Shown here: positions 422 through 9,199 of the stretch, in pieces
Layout: the number at the start of each line of letters is the position of its first letter
Position numbering within the stretch: position 1 is the first letter of the stretch
Origin: Paractinoplanes ovalisporus
GTDB taxonomy: Bacteria; Actinomycetota; Actinomycetes; Mycobacteriales; Micromonosporaceae
DNA length: 64,000 bases
NCBI RefSeq assembly: GCF_016834655.1
Contig: NZ_JAENHP010000002.1
Coordinates: 1-64,000, forward strand
Direction: 5' to 3'
Made by a program: the position numbers and the translations under genes
Notes under the pieces: generated by a model
The model's database searches: none
Seen by the model: only the letters and a program-made list of their open reading frames with translations
What the model was told of the DNA's origin: nothing

Positions 422-3283
422 TCAGTTGTCGAGCAGGCCCAACCGTCGTGCCACCGCGGCGGCCTCGCCCCGGTTGGAGACCTCCAGCTTGGCGATGATG
501 CGGGAAACGTGGACGCTGGCCGTCTTCGGGGAGATGTAGAGGTCGGCGGCGATCCGGCTGTTGGAGTGGCCCTCGGCGACCAGCCGCAGCACCTCGCGTT
601 CCCGGGCCGTCAGCAGCTCGTCGCGATCGGCCGCGGGTGTCGACGGCCGGATGCCCAGGCGGCGGGTGAGCGTGTCGGCCGCATCGAGGAGCGGCTTCGC
701 GCCCAGCGCCGAGGCGACCGCCACCGCCTCGGCGATGGAATCTGCGGGCGCGGACCGGTCGCCGGCCGCGGCCTGGGCCTCGGCCAGGCTGAGCAGGGCC
801 GACGCCAGCTCGTGGCGATGCCCGTCGGTGCGCCAGGCGGCCACGGCCTCGGCCCAGCGGGCCGGCCCGCCCTCGAGCACGGCCCTCATCTGGGCGGCGA
901 ACGCCGTCTCGGCCGGGTAGCGCTGCGGCAACCCCTCGGCAACGCCGGCGACCGCGCCGGCCAGTTCGGTGTCGCCGGCCCGGACCGCGGCCTGGGCGGC
1001 GTGGGCCAGGATCGACCACGAATAGCGCGGCAGGACGGTCAGGCGGGGTTCGGCCAGGGCCGTGCGTGCGGCGTCGGCGGCGGTGACCGGGTCGGGGTCG
1101 TCGAAGGCGGCGACCAGGCACAGGTCGAGCGTGGCCAGGCGGCCCTCGGTGCTCAGATAGGGCCGGCGCAGAAACGCGGCCGAACGGCTCACCAGGGACT
1201 CGGCTCCCTCGCGGCCGCGGGCCAGGCGGATGCGGGCCCGCAGGCGCAACCAGGGCAGCGCCATCGTCTCGGGCGGGTCGAGGCGGGCGGCCTCGGCCAG
1301 ACGGGCGTCGGCCTCGTCCCACCGGCCCAGGGCGATCAGCGCCTCGGCGTGGTTGGCCAGCAGATAGACCCCGGTCGTGCGGCCGACGCCGATGCGGCCC
1401 GCGTCGGGCAGCCCCTCGGCCGCGGCGGCCGCGGAATCCTCGTAGCGCCCGAGCTCGAACAGCGAATCGGACACGCTGACCAGACCTCGCGTCACGCTGG
1501 GGAAATCGTCGGCGGCGCGGGCCCGGTCGACGGCCTCACGCATGACCGGCAGGGCATCGCCGGCCGGTATGCGGCCGGAGCACGAGGACCCGTACGCCAC
1601 CTCGGCCGACACCATCGCGACGAGGTCGCCGGACTGGTGGGCGTCTTCCATCGCGAGGCGTGCCACCTCGGTGCCCTGCTCGGGGTCGACGGCCGAGATG
1701 AGGTGGGCCAGCTCGGCCAGCAGCCGGACCCGCGTGGCGCCGCGCGGGGCGTGGGTGAGCAGGCGCAACGCCTCGTCGCACTCGGGCGTGGCGTCGGACT
1801 TGCCGGCGGTGCGCAGCAGTTTGGCCCGCCGCACCAGAAGCCGGCCCGCGCGCAGCGGCTCGGCCTCGCAGTCGAGATCGCCGAGGGCGGCCCGGGTGAG
1901 GCTGAGCGCGCGCATGTATTCCCCGGAGTCGATCGCGGCCAGCGCCGATTCCTCGAGCAGGTCGAGGTGGTCGATGCCGAGCCGGGCCGCGGCGTCGGGG
2001 ACGTCTTCCCACAGCTGCAGGACCCGATCGAGCAGACGGGCCTGTTCCCCGTACGCGAAGCGGCACTTGGCCTCATCGGCCGCGATCTTGGCAGTGAGCA
2101 GCGCGCGTGGATGATCGTGGGCGGCGTGCCAGTGGTGGGCGATCTCGGCGGCCGCGCGCCCGGCCGCGACCAGTTGCGGTTCGGCCTCGACGGCCTGGGC
2201 GTAACGCGCGTGGAGGCGGGCATGCTCGCCGGGGAGCAGGTCGTCGTGTACGGCCTCGCGCACCAGGGCGTGGCGGAACTCGTAACCTCCCTCGGCGTCG
2301 ACGACCACGACGAGCTGGGCCGCGACGATGACCCGCAGCGCGGACTCGAGGTCGGCCTCGTCCATGCCGGCGACGCGGGCCAGCAGCGCATGGCCGAACC
2401 GGGTGCCCCCGACGGCCGCCACCCGCAGCACACGCTGGGCCGGCTCGGGCAGCAGGTCGACCCGGGCGAGAAGCAGGTCGCGCAGGGTGGCCGGGATGTC
2501 GCCGCAGGCCGGATCGGCGGTCGCCGCGAACTGCTCGATGAAGAACGGATTGCCCTGGGCGCGCTCGTTGATGGTGTCGACCGTGCGCGGGTCGGGTTCG
2601 GCCCCGAGCAGATGGGCCAGCATCTCGGCGGTGCCCTCGCGGTCGAGCCGGTCGAGCTCGAGGCGCAACACACCCCGTACGCGGTCGAGCTCGCCCAGGA
2701 AAGGCCGGAGCGGATGCCCGCGGTGGAGCTCGTCGGTGCGGTACGTCGCCACCAGCAGCAGCTGGGGCAGCCGGGCGGCGCGCACCAGGAAGCCGATGAG
2801 GTCGCGGGTGGAGCGGTCGGACCAGTGCAGATCTTCCAGTACGAGGACGAGCGGCTGCTCGGCGCTGAGCCGGCCGAACAGCGCGGCGACCGCCTCGAAC
2901 AGCAGCCCCCGGCGGACGTCACCCTCGGGCGGCGGGCCCAGCTCGGGCAGCAGGCGGGCCAGCTCACGCTCGTGGCCGTCGAGAACCTCGCGGCCCTCGG
3001 CGCGCACCAGCTCACGCAGCGCGCCGGCGAACGGGGCGAACGGCAGGCCCTCCTCACCCAGCTCGAGGCACTGACCGGCCAGAACGCGGGCGGGCTCGGG
3101 GGCGAGACCTCGCCGGAACTCCTCGACCAGCCGCGTCTTGCCCACTCCCGCCTCACCGCCGACCAGCACGGTCGACGGCTCGGCGTGGCGCGCCCGCTTC
3201 AGTGCGTCGCGCAGCACGGCCAGGTCGGCCTCGCGGCCGACGATGACCTCGCTGTGGGCATGCACCGCCATGAGTTCGAGCAT
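422..3283 (-). CDS. Large ATP-binding LuxR-family transcriptional regulator (LAL type)
   Basis: Predicted cytoplasmic transcription activator of 953 residues. The Walker A motif GGEAGVGKT is near residues 42-50, followed by a Walker B-like LVLVLEDLHWSD and a long helical, TPR-like middle. The last 60 residues form a LuxR/GerE helix-turn-helix (LTAREREVLRLVAEGHSNS, then SPKTASVHV). This is the MalT/LAL architecture, in which nucleotide and inducer binding by the sensor region control DNA binding; the inducer is unknown. The start chosen gives MLELMAVHAHSEVIVGRE, which fits the family N-terminus. The frame is open to 3412, and no good ribosome site decides between the starts. A 59-residue gene lies directly upstream in the same direction and may share its transcript. 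Confidence 0.9.
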   Translation of the reverse strand: MLELMAVHAHSEVIVGREADLAVLRDALKRARHAEPSTVLVGGEAGVGKTRLVEEFRRGLAPEPARVLAGQCLELGEEGLPFAPFAGALRELVRAEGREVLDGHERELARLLPELGPPPEGDVRRGLLFEAVAALFGRLSAEQPLVLVLEDLHWSDRSTRDLIGFLVRAARLPQLLLVATYRTDELHRGHPLRPFLGELDRVRGVLRLELDRLDREGTAEMLAHLLGAEPDPRTVDTINERAQGNPFFIEQFAATADPACGDIPATLRDLLLARVDLLPEPAQRVLRVAAVGGTRFGHALLARVAGMDEADLESALRVIVAAQLVVVVDAEGGYEFRHALVREAVHDDLLPGEHARLHARYAQAVEAEPQLVAAGRAAAEIAHHWHAAHDHPRALLTAKIAADEAKCRFAYGEQARLLDRVLQLWEDVPDAAARLGIDHLDLLEESALAAIDSGEYMRALSLTRAALGDLDCEAEPLRAGRLLVRRAKLLRTAGKSDATPECDEALRLLTHAPRGATRVRLLAELAHLISAVDPEQGTEVARLAMEDAHQSGDLVAMVSAEVAYGSSCSGRIPAGDALPVMREAVDRARAADDFPSVTRGLVSVSDSLFELGRYEDSAAAAAEGLPDAGRIGVGRTTGVYLLANHAEALIALGRWDEADARLAEAARLDPPETMALPWLRLRARIRLARGREGAESLVSRSAAFLRRPYLSTEGRLATLDLCLVAAFDDPDPVTAADAARTALAEPRLTVLPRYSWSILAHAAQAAVRAGDTELAGAVAGVAEGLPQRYPAETAFAAQMRAVLEGGPARWAEAVAAWRTDGHRHELASALLSLAEAQAAAGDRSAPADSIAEAVAVASALGAKPLLDAADTLTRRLGIRPSTPAADRDELLTAREREVLRLVAEGHSNSRIAADLYISPKTASVHVSRIIAKLEVSNRGEAAAVARRLGLLDN

Positions 3284-6662: not shown

Positions 6663-7586
6663 TTACTTACGCGCCTCGAGGGCCTGCTTGTAGAGGCGGC
6701 CCGCCCGGTACGACGACCGGACCAGCGGCCCGCTCATCACGCCGGCGAAGCCGATCTGCTCGGCCTCCTCGCGCAGCTCGACGAACTCTTCGGGCTTGAC
6801 CCACCGCTCGACCGGGTGGTGACGCGGCGTCGGGCGCAGGTATTGCGTGATGGTGATCAGCTCGCAGCCCGCGTTGTGCAGGTCGCGCAGCGCCTGGGAG
6901 ATCTCGGCCCGCTCCTCGCCCATGCCCAGGATCAGGTTGCTCTTGGTGACCAGGTCGGCCGCGCGGGCCTGGGTGATCACGTCGAGGGAGCGTTCGTAGC
7001 GGAAGCCGGGACGGATCCGCTTGAAGATGCGCGGCACGGTCTCGACGTTGTGCGCGAGCACCTCGGGCGCGGCCCCGAACACCTCGGCCAGCTGGTCGGG
7101 CTCGGCGTTGAAGTCGGGGATCAGCAGCTCGACACCGCAGTCGGGCTGGAGCTTGTGGATCTGACGGACGGTCTCGGCGTAGAGCCAGGCGCCGCCGTCG
7201 GGCAGGTCGTCGCGGGCGACGCCGGTGACGGTCGCGTATTTCAGGCCCATCGTGGCGACGGACTCGCCCACACGACGCGGCTCGTCGGCGTCGAACTCGG
7301 CCGGCTTGCCCGTGTCGATCTGGCAGAAGTCACAGCGCCGCGTGCACTGGTCGCCGCCGATGAGGAACGTGGCCTCGCGGTCTTCCCAGCACTCGTAGAT
7401 GTTGGGACACCCGGCCTCCTGACAGACCGTGTGCAGGCCTTCCTTCTGCACCAGCCCGCGCATCTGGGTGTATTCCGGCCCCATCTTCGCTTTGACCTTG
7501 ATCCACGGAGGCTTCCGCTCGATCGGAGTTTCGGCGTTGCGCGCTTCGATGCGCAGCATGCGGCGGCCCTCGGGAGCAATAGTCAC
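6663..7586 (-). CDS. lipA: Lipoyl synthase (radical SAM)
   Basis: Inserts two sulfur atoms into octanoyl groups on lipoyl domains, completing the lipoate cofactor made with LipB (encoded about 6 kb away). The 307-residue protein has the auxiliary-cluster motif C55-x4-C60-x5-C66 ([12 protein letters not shown]), the radical SAM motif C81-x3-C85-x2-C88 (CTRRCDFC) and the conserved RSSYRAG near the C-terminus, whose Ser ligates the auxiliary cluster. The GTG start at 7586 gives the family N-terminus [19 protein letters not shown]; the frame stays open far upstream without support. Substrates in this window include SucB. It is divergent from the T-box/AspRS gene. Confidence 0.97.
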
Positions 7587-7740
7587 AGGGTCGAGGTTAC
7601 GCCTGAATAGGTCCCTGCCTAGACAGGGGCGACGAGGCTCACGTGACGTCTCCTGTGACCGCCGCCACATGAAACGTGTTAAATGCCTTTCGCACGGCCG
7701 TTGCCCCTTGTTAACGTCGCCGCACGGCGTTGACGGAACC

Positions 7741-7931
7741 GAGTAGCACCCCGATCCGCCGGCCGAGAGAGCCACCGCGAGCTGTGAAGGTGGCCCGCGC
7801 GCCGGGGTGCGAAGACACTCCCGAGCCGAGCACGACAAGAGGCGCCCGCGAGGGCGCGAAGGTGTGGTGGTACCGCGAGGATCCCGCTCGCCCACGCCTC
7901 CCTGGGGCCGCGTTGCCGAATCCAAGGAGGT
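7741..7931 (+). promoter_or_regulatory. Translational T-box riboswitch, Asp (GAC) specifier
   Basis: A T-box leader can be traced by hand. Stem I contains AGTA (7742-7745) facing GAA (7811-7813), followed by the specifier GAC (7814-7816). Flanking helices are GAGT/ACTC and GCACCCCG/CGGGGTGC. The AGAGAG motif is at 7766-7771 and a GCTGTGAA apical motif at 7781-7788. Stem III is GCGCCC-GCGA-GGGCGC (7842-7857). The T-box sequence TGGTACCGCG (7868-7877) lies in a bulge between the helices GGTGTGG/CCACGCC and GCGAG/CTCGC. The alternative sequestrator pairs CCTCCCTGG (7897-7905) with CCAAGGAGG (7922-7930), hiding the ribosome site. Uncharged tRNA-Asp should therefore free the site and switch on translation of the synthetase. 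Confidence 0.93.
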
Positions 7932-7939
7932 CACCCACC

Positions 7940-9199
7940 GTGCAACGCATCCTCTCCTCCCAGCTCACGGCCCATGTCCGCGAGACCGTGACGATCGCCG
8001 GCTGGATTCACCGCCGCCGCCTGCTCAAGGCGGTGGCCTTCCTGATCGTCCGGGACGCTGAGGGGCTCAGTCAGGTCGTCGTCACCGAACCGGCGGCCCG
8101 GACCCAGCTCGAGGAGCTCACCGAGGAGACCGTCGTCGAGGTGGTCGCCACGGTCACCCCGAACGAGCAGGCGCCCGGCGGCGTCGAGCTCACCGAGCCC
8201 AAGATCCGCGTCCTCTCCGGCGTGGCCGCGCCGCTGCCGTTCGAGCTGCACCGCCCCGCGATCGGGGCCGCGCTGCCGACGCAGCTCGACCACGCGGCGC
8301 TCGCCCTGCGGCACCCCACGCGCCGGTCGGCCCTGCGGATCGCGGCAGCCGCGACGGCCGGCTTCCGGGCCGCGCTCACCGAGCAGCGCTTCGTCGAGAT
8401 CCAGACGCCGAAGATCGTGGCGTCGGCCACCGAGTCCGGTGCGAACGTGTTCGAACTGGACTACTTCGGCCGTCCCGGCTATCTCGCCCAGTCGCCGCAG
8501 TTCTACAAGCAGCTCATGGTCGGCGTCTTCGAGCGGGTCTTCGAGGTCGGTCCGGTCTTCCGGGCCGAACCCAGCGACACCGTGCGGCACCTGGCGCAGT
8601 ACACGTCGCTCGACGCCGAGATGGGCTTCATCGCCGACCACCGCGACGTGATGGCGATGCTGACGCGGACGCTCTCCGGGATGATGGCCGCGGCGGCGCC
8701 CTTCGCGGAGGTGCCGCCGGTGCCGTCGGAGATCCCCGCCGTGCACTTCACCGAGGCGTTGCGCATCGCCGGAGCACCCGCCGACGAGCCCGACCTGGCC
8801 CCCGCGCACGAGCGGGCGCTGGGCGAATGGGCGCTGCGCGAGCACGGTTCGGAATTCGTCTACGTGACCGGTTATCCGATGCGGAAGCGGCCGTTCTACA
8901 CACACCCCGACCCGGCCCGACCGGCGTACTCGAACGGTTTCGACCTGCTTTTCCGAGGCCTCGAGATCGTGACCGGTGGCCAGCGCCTGCACCGATGGAC
9001 CGACTATGTGGAGGCGCTGACCCGAGCCGGCGAGCCCCTGGAGCCGTACGCGGGATATCTGGACGGCTTCCGCTACGGCATGCCCCCGCACGGCGGCTGG
9101 GCGATCGGCCTGGAACGCTTCGTGGCCCGCCTGACCGGGACCGCGAACGTGCGCGAGGTGACCGCCTTCCCGCGCGACCTCAACCGCATAACCCCATAG
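7940..9199 (+). CDS. aspS2: Archaeal-type aspartate--tRNA(Asp/Asn) ligase
   Basis: Class II aminoacyl-tRNA synthetase of 419 residues, charging tRNA with aspartate. An N-terminal OB-fold anticodon domain ([19 protein letters not shown], residues 21-39) precedes the catalytic core. Motif 2 is [15 protein letters not shown] with a following SLDAEMGF (about 204-230), and motif 3 is GWAIGLERF near residue 390. The length and the lack of the bacterial GAD insertion place it in the archaeal/eukaryotic AspRS group, not the roughly 590-residue bacterial AspS. The GTG at 7940 follows a strong AAGGAGGT (7924-7931), the element sequestered by the T-box. Whether it also charges tRNA-Asn cannot be decided here; no gatCAB genes are in the window. 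Confidence 0.92.

Follow-up and report, generated by a model that had tools for sequence, protein, structure and literature searches.

A GAC T-box leader without Stem II in front of a second, archaeal-type aspartyl-tRNA synthetase gene of Paractinoplanes ovalisporus

The first 64,000 nucleotides of contig NZ_JAENHP010000002.1 of the actinomycete Paractinoplanes ovalisporus, hereafter the window, carry aspS2, a gene for an archaeal-type aspartyl-tRNA synthetase (AspRS), preceded by a structured leader. T-boxes on synthetase genes raise the amount of enzyme when its tRNA is uncharged, and the leader of aspS2 has the anatomy of such a switch, with the aspartate codon GAC at the place of the specifier. 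The best explanation of the locus, held at a probability of about 0.85 on the sequence data, is a T-box in front of a second AspRS that would sense uncharged tRNA-Asp and free the ribosome site of the gene.

The aspS2 leader and the tRNA that it is predicted to read

The elements of the leader are given in Table 1. Their arrangement is that of Rfam family RF00230, namely a Stem I whose specifier loop is framed by the conserved AGTA and GAA, and the UGGN sequence in a bulge between the two helices of the antisequestrator; the variable base N is U in the window. All motifs named in a preliminary description of this stretch (AGTA, GAA, GAC, AGAGAG, the apical motif, Stem III with its GCGA loop and the T-box itself) are present, and the leader starts about 15 bases ahead of the point given there. 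Assignment of the AGAGAG bulge to the elbow-binding apical motif, called IDTM in PMC7583486, comes from alignment to RF00230. The helix below the apical loop forms consensus pairs in 96.7% of cells of the covariation set.

Table 1. Features of the aspS2 locus, in window positions
Feature	Position	Strand	Basis or remark
T-box leader	7726-7939	+	in front of aspS2
Stem I, long form (lower helix, specifier internal loop, upper helices, apical loop)	7726..7828	+	model R1 and covariation (30 leaders)
AGTA, 5′ side of specifier loop	7742-7745	+	sequence; invariant in 30/30 aligned leaders
AGAGAG bulge, part of elbow-binding apical motif (IDTM)	7766-7771	+	sequence; aligned with AGAGA of RF00230
Apical loop GCGAGCTGTGAA	7777..7788	+	caps helix GCCACC/GGTGGC, 7771-7776 / 7789-7794
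Apical-loop motif GCTGTGAA	7781-7788	+	sequence
GAA preceding specifier	7811-7813	+	sequence
Specifier codon GAC (Asp)	7814-7816	+	162/164 T-box leaders; frame from lower helix GGAG:CTCC and TBDB rule
Linker of 9 bases, GAGCACGAC, where Stem II and IIA/B would otherwise lie	7828..7836	+	8-12 bases in 56/56 genus leaders examined
Purine stretch AAGAGG before Stem III	7837-7842	+	predicted fold; Rfam alignment
Stem III, GCGCCC-GCGA-GGGCGC, GCGA loop	7842-7857	+	predicted fold; Rfam alignment
Antisequestrator	7861..7898	+	predicted fold; A1/A2 covariation
Helix A1	7861-7867/7892-7898	+	part of antisequestrator
T-box bulge UGGUACC (DNA TGGTACC)	7868-7874	+	between helices A1 and A2
Helix A2	7875-7879/7887-7891	+	part of antisequestrator
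Predicted anti-Shine-Dalgarno GCCUCC	7896..7901	+	prediction, overlaps helix A1; near-equal fold energies; weak swap test
Shine-Dalgarno AAGGAGGT / AAGGAGGU	7924-7931	+	sequence
aspS2, archaeal-type, non-discriminating-type aspartate--tRNA ligase, 419 aa, GTG start	7940..9199	+	NF003483 match; 1n9w relative

How readily the leader is detected depends on the covariance model. The Rfam search proposed in the preliminary description gave a divided answer: a permissive search of 311 bases with RF00230 aligns 7721-7898 at 42.1 bits (E = 3e-8), but this lies under the Rfam gathering score of 93 (a score threshold, not an anatomical feature), and a default Rfam scan of the window at that threshold returned no T-box. 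Taken alone, this shortfall speaks against a T-box. In the same search the ileS T-boxes of this organism, two in number, reach 57.7 and 42.9 bits and also fall below 93, so the default miss points more to how the threshold suits actinobacterial T-boxes than to the leader itself. A Stem I covariance model built from the leaders of 29 relatives, with the window left out (model R1), finds 7726-7828 at 90.9 bits (E = 7.5e-23; the E-values are rough), and the lack of any covariance-model match, which the preliminary description had named as a reason to abandon the idea, is not what was observed. The next best place in the 11.4 Mb genome, in a scan that scored 150 of 19710 first-look candidates, is the ileS T-box with the long Stem I (46.9 bits). 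A second R1 match in the window (1991-2083, minus strand, 23.7 bits, E = 3e-4) falls within a long open reading frame of that strand and was taken as chance.

The minimum free energy of the whole leader is no better than that of shuffled sequences (z 0.14) and gives no guide. Across 30 non-redundant sequences, 94.4% of Stem I cells form consensus pairs, 19 of the 23 pairs show two-sided changes, and none of 500 shuffles reaches any of five covariation measures. Related rows can inflate such a shuffle control; a control with the structure slid along the alignment, which keeps relatedness while favouring the structure drawn from the same consensus, gives 36-47% paired. In the antisequestrator, 8 of the 12 pairs of A1 and A2 change on both sides among 23 distinct sets, again with 0/500 shuffles reaching this value. 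At the level of sequence, anatomy and covariation together confirm that the leader is a real T-box.

Specificity was examined in 166 leaders of aspS2 loci. These comprise 81 of the 82 loci of an order-wide set (L089, at 38% identity, was dropped), 10 of the 80 best relatives (70 under 55% identity were dropped), 16 of the 21 of a class-wide set (five repeats were dropped), 29 new loci of the bacterial family and 30 further loci. A T-box was recognised in 164 and none was found in the remaining two of those classified, L072 and L221. The T-box leaders divide into 146 with a long Stem I and GAAGAC (a script picked out 144; L126 and L273 were recognised by eye), 16 with a short hairpin that holds GAC in its loop, and L064 and L085 (genus g2), in which Stem I is not recognisable and the aspS2 matches are partial. 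GAC stands at the specifier place in 162 of the 164.

The survey scans asked for GAC, so controls were run without a fixed codon. For the long leaders, a pattern of GAA, any codon, the lower helix and the K-turn was matched 144 times, by 143 leaders out of 148, and the matches read GAC in 143 cases and GAT in one; L064, L085, L121, L126 and L252 fall outside this pattern, and the last three read GAC by eye. What fixes the frame is the lower helix at the base of Stem I, GGAG:CTCC in most aligned leaders. Its top pair is intact in 28 of the 30; GAA-GAC-N then remains on the 3′ side of the loop, and GAC stands in the frame preferred by the TBDB rule, by which the specifier lies 2-4 bases before the end of the bulge (PMC7778990).

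The second reading comes from the variable base of the T-box, which is C in 128 leaders, U in 36 and neither A nor G in any of the 164. It thus fits the discriminator G73 of tRNA-Asp, found in both tRNA-Asp genes (two different ones) of the window's genome, in which tRNAs were read in 44 stretches covering all 73 tRNA hits except those longer than 80 bases. tRNA-Asn also has G73, but an Asn codon occupies the specifier place in none of the 162 leaders. The two ileS T-boxes serve as an internal control: both read ATC (in L007 the loop was read by eye) and have N = U, fitting A73 of both tRNA-Ile genes. Together these readings support Asp as the specificity of the leader, in agreement with the preliminary description.

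Two tRNA arrays lie in the same genome, at C6:67036-67796 and C22:586758-588197, and the first holds the second, different tRNA-Asp(GTC) with G73. The two ileS genes (L006 and L007, on contigs C19 and C13; 490 residues of each were read for identity) each have their own T-box, one with a long Stem I and ATC, the other ultrashort with ATC in the loop.

AspS2 and the AspRS set of the genome

The product of aspS2 scores 511.6 bits against NF003483 (aspartate--tRNA(Asn) ligase), above the cut-off of 353, and 340.2 bits against TIGR00458, below the cut-off of 368.4; with the latter missed, charging of tRNA-Asn is likely but not secured. Its closest solved relative is Thermus AspRS2 (1n9w, E = 5.5e-99). 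In the alignment, W26 and K85 of Thermococcus AspRS are replaced by His and Pro in AspS2, as they are in Thermus AspRS2; these two positions presumably decide the choice of tRNA. The archaeal type proposed earlier for this enzyme is thereby borne out.

So is its standing as a second AspRS. A bacterial-type enzyme, AspS1, is also encoded in the window's genome, and a bacterial AspS was found at E 1e-80 or better in all 80 genomes tested among the 82 with aspS2 (G235 and G278 were left out). The curated cut-off was exceeded in 79 of them; the remaining genome, G033, is 74% complete and has an AspS fragment. As judged by these matches, AspS2 is an additional enzyme in every genome of the 80-genome sample. 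Three T-box matches were obtained in the window's genome, and among its AspRS genes only aspS2 has one. Of the housekeeping AspS and gatCAB genes that the preliminary description had suggested looking for, the former and GatB are present (GatA and GatC were not searched). No asparaginyl-tRNA synthetase was found above the cut-off in this genome, so that loss of AspRS activity would be expected to affect both Asp-tRNA and, via GatCAB, Asn-tRNA.

Of 354 genomes surveyed in the bacterial family, 285 have the gene, among them 63 of the 67 from the window's genus; the order gave 82 of 397 and the class, with another query and a stricter limit, 21 of 394. Among the best 80 of 588 relatives, the named organisms include Phytohabitans flavus, Nonomuraea, Kineosporia, Terrabacter, Flexivirga and Microbacterium, and Phytohabitans (Micromonosporaceae) falls inside the window's bacterial family in the tree. 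For Micromonosporaceae and further actinomycetes, the conserved leader points to a widespread second AspRS that would be inducible. lipA adjoins aspS2 at 58/58 tested loci of genus g2 and 28/28 of the window's genus, and also at L063 (genus g6) and L121. At the remaining 47 of 135 loci, three of them from the same bacterial family (L065, L068 and L079), no lipA lies within flanks of 1-2.5 kb. Within genus g2 and the window's genus, conserved adjacency marks aspS2 as a stable core locus.

These data bear on what the second enzyme is for. It could be an inhibitor-resistant AspRS kept for self-protection or defence against AspRS poisons, with the T-box as its alarm. Its presence as an additional enzyme throughout the 80-genome sample would suit that role, as would the response to be expected from the T-box if AspS1 were inhibited, and a precedent exists in Bacillus cereus, where a T-box precedes lysK, the gene of a class I, archaeal-type lysyl-tRNA synthetase that likewise accompanies an enzyme of bacterial type (PMC2916919). 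That T-box differs in its lysine specificity, its Firmicute host and its description as an antitermination system. The frequency of aspS2 in the family and its place beside lipA at 86/86 tested loci of two genera are more like those of a core gene, and the adjacency makes a cluster-borne resistance gene less likely. Resistance is accordingly kept as a possible but doubtful role, and the genomic context speaks for a presumed physiological backup instead.

Additional AspRS genes have counterparts elsewhere. In Clostridium acetobutylicum, one of three aspS genes is under T-box control (PMC2494555), likewise an extra aspS, in a Firmicute. Thermus thermophilus AspRS2 (1n9w), described as a second AspRS in PMC4206432, is likewise archaeal-type and non-discriminating. 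No report of an actinobacterial aspS T-box was found in the literature consulted; TBDB, outside this search, may list such leaders. The Asp leader is likely a new variant of the T-box switch.

Mode of action

In the proposed mechanism, uncharged tRNA-Asp would bind the leader through the GAC specifier, an extra tRNA contact would come from the elbow-binding motif at the apex of the long Stem I, as in the glyQS T-box, and the bound tRNA would hold the antisequestrator. The ribosome site would then probably be free, while without tRNA a predicted CCUCC:GGAGG helix would hide the Shine-Dalgarno sequence. AspS2 would thus be made when charged tRNA-Asp runs short, and could serve as a reserve enzyme, both for tRNA-Asp and, together with GatCAB, for the formation of Asn-tRNA-Asn.

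Control of translation, as put forward in the preliminary description, is the most likely reading of the sequences and predicted folds. A terminator scan of 7560-8000 gave no terminator-like site, and a U-tract follows the T-box in only 1 of 164 leaders, a near absence that points to translation as the step controlled. Of 88 leaders, 78 have CUCC within helix A1 or immediately behind it, able to pair with GGAG, which is present in all 88 (GGAG being the search term for the Shine-Dalgarno). The exception with a U-tract is L156, from an Anaerolineae metagenome bin: its T-rich run at about 2420-2480, after the T-box, is of terminator type by eye and suggests a transcriptional version, and the consensus scan did not call a terminator there.

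The energetics are less favourable to the sequestration part of this mechanism, and the first two comparisons below count against it. With Stem III and 20 coding bases included, the window's antisequestrator fold has -50.6 kcal/mol and the fold that hides the Shine-Dalgarno -50.2 kcal/mol; without them, the values are -29.0 and -35.0 kcal/mol. Depending on the bases included, the difference therefore changes from 0.4 kcal/mol against hiding to 6.0 kcal/mol for it. Native pairs of anti-Shine-Dalgarno and Shine-Dalgarno sequences are 0.4 kcal/mol better than swapped ones (47 distinct pairs), a weak signal reached by 278 of 5000 permutations. Across the 56 genus leaders, the mean difference is 2.2 kcal/mol in favour of hiding (standard deviation 3.2; range from 8.0 for to 16.7 against). 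The part of the earlier proposal that concerned the step controlled is thus made likely by the rarity of U-tracts, while its competing helix stays a prediction with weak covariation.

Control of transcription instead, for instance through Rho, would sit well with this weak swap test and with L156, which suggests that the platform can change; set against the single U-tract in 164 leaders, the lack of a terminator-like site in the scanned part of the window and the frequent presence of CUCC opposite GGAG, it is improbable.

The Stem II-less layout, T-box classes and minimal leaders

Between Stem I and the purine stretch of Stem III the window has just its short linker. The preliminary description mentions neither this layout nor how common the gene is. 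Stem II is likewise absent from all 56 genus leaders examined (63 genus genomes have the gene), from Phytohabitans (L121) and from a Nocardioidaceae bin (L126). In 90 leaders, specifier and T-box lie more than 90 bases apart, with a motif typical of the Stem II region matched in 86 and unmatched in 4.

At least four T-box classes are distinguished in PMC10482949 (2023). The glyQS type, Class II, combines a long Stem I with a linker that replaces Stem II, and is described as glycine-specific and generally transcriptional; in Class III, Stem I is short, with the specifier in its apical loop, and Stem II is required. Capture of the tRNA is said to be helped by the elbow motif, Stem II or the two together, and the glycine exception is explained by G-C-rich codon pairing (PMC7583486). 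The window's leader shares with Class II the long Stem I, the apical elbow motif (assigned by sequence alone) and the linker, but reads GAC and not a glycine codon; it is therefore described as built like Class II and is not filed there. With a long Stem I, a specifier outside the apical loop and no Stem II, it does not belong to Class III either. The glyQS T-box thus resembles it in the linker and differs in glycine specificity and in generally transcriptional control, as against GAC and no terminator. With the translational ileS T-boxes of actinobacteria (Class III/IV; via PMC10482949 and PMC7583486), it has in common the T-box, the antisequestrator, the lack of a terminator and the phylum, and it departs from them in its Asp specificity, its long Stem I with apical motif, its lack of Stem II and a base N that fits G73 by wobble.

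Some features of the leader tell against a working Asp switch. In the window, as in Phytohabitans, A-C stands where the lower helix should have its top pair, and a strict count from the window's helix end would give ACA (Thr) in place of GAC. The base U at N can form no more than a G-U wobble with G73; such wobble is allowed in TBDB, where it is recorded for 46% of Trp T-boxes (PMC7778990), and C, the Watson-Crick partner, is the prevailing base among the relatives. The frame is also less sure in the short hairpins. When all 64 codons were placed on the hairpin pattern, the average codon fitted 1.8 leaders, GAC 16 of 16, the overlapping TGA 15 and ACG (Thr) 11; a stricter filter, run on a narrower region too tight for the four minimal leaders, fitted GAC to 8 of 16 and ACG to the same number, and did not tell the frames apart.

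The A-C pair, N = U and the missing Stem II could be read as signs of a decaying T-box, with a broken helix and a drifted N, behind which aspS2 would be expressed free of tRNA control. Against this, the genus leaders examined lack Stem II in all 56 cases yet keep GAC, the T-box and the antisequestrator, and where Stem I is no longer recognisable (L064 and L085) the gene match is also partial, as decay would look. These two are possibly decaying copies; for the window's leader, decay has little in its favour and is quite improbable. Less probable still is a leader that reads ACA or ACC and senses tRNA-Thr, alone or beside tRNA-Asp: the window and most relatives have GAAGACA or GAAGACC, in which a step of one base gives a Thr codon, the window's helix end allows this step under the TBDB rule and ACG fits many short hairpins, but the frame-setting pair is intact in nearly all aligned leaders, the gene encodes an AspRS, and the four tRNA-Thr of normal length have U73 (a fifth, odd call of 86 bases has G) and would need A at N, which occurs in no leader, so that the discriminator decides for GAC over ACA.

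With the GAC reading retained, the short leaders extend the layout further. In L247 (G790), L265 (G806), L127 and L128, GAC lies in a hairpin loop, elbow motif and Stem II are both absent, and 64-66 bases separate the hairpin from the T-box. In the remaining 12 short leaders, more sequence lies in the Stem II region. L247 and L265 are two of the 56 genus leaders and stand in front of sister proteins (that of the L265 genome is L281) nested among genus members with a long Stem I and no Stem II; L127 and L128, found elsewhere, form a separate pair. On this quick protein tree (77 rows, many forks weak), at least four switches between a long and a short Stem I are required, and at least three between presence and absence of Stem II, short leaders with a longer linker being uncounted. 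The separation of the two pairs and the four changes imply that Stem I shrank more than once on this tree.

By their sequences, the minimal leaders are outside the four classes of PMC10482949, and the window's genus gives a natural series from long to minimal Stem I. The balance tips slightly towards a broader interpretation, in which the Stem II-less layout would not be bound to glycine or to transcription, a genus of actinomycetes would run a translational Asp version of it, and the RNA would twice have shrunk to a specifier hairpin plus discriminator contact. A conserved GAC T-box without Stem II, together with relatives that lack both Stem II and the elbow motif, makes the rule that one or the other helps tRNA capture directly testable, and the minimal leaders may define the smallest working T-box.

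Two further forms were seen in the survey. In L268 and L270 (G765 and G778), which belong to the 56 genus leaders, 282 and 292 bases lie between specifier and T-box, seemingly through a very long insertion in Stem III. L026, L032, L041, L045, L051 and L053 have a second TGGCACCG motif further upstream in the leader, which may reflect tandem elements or chance.
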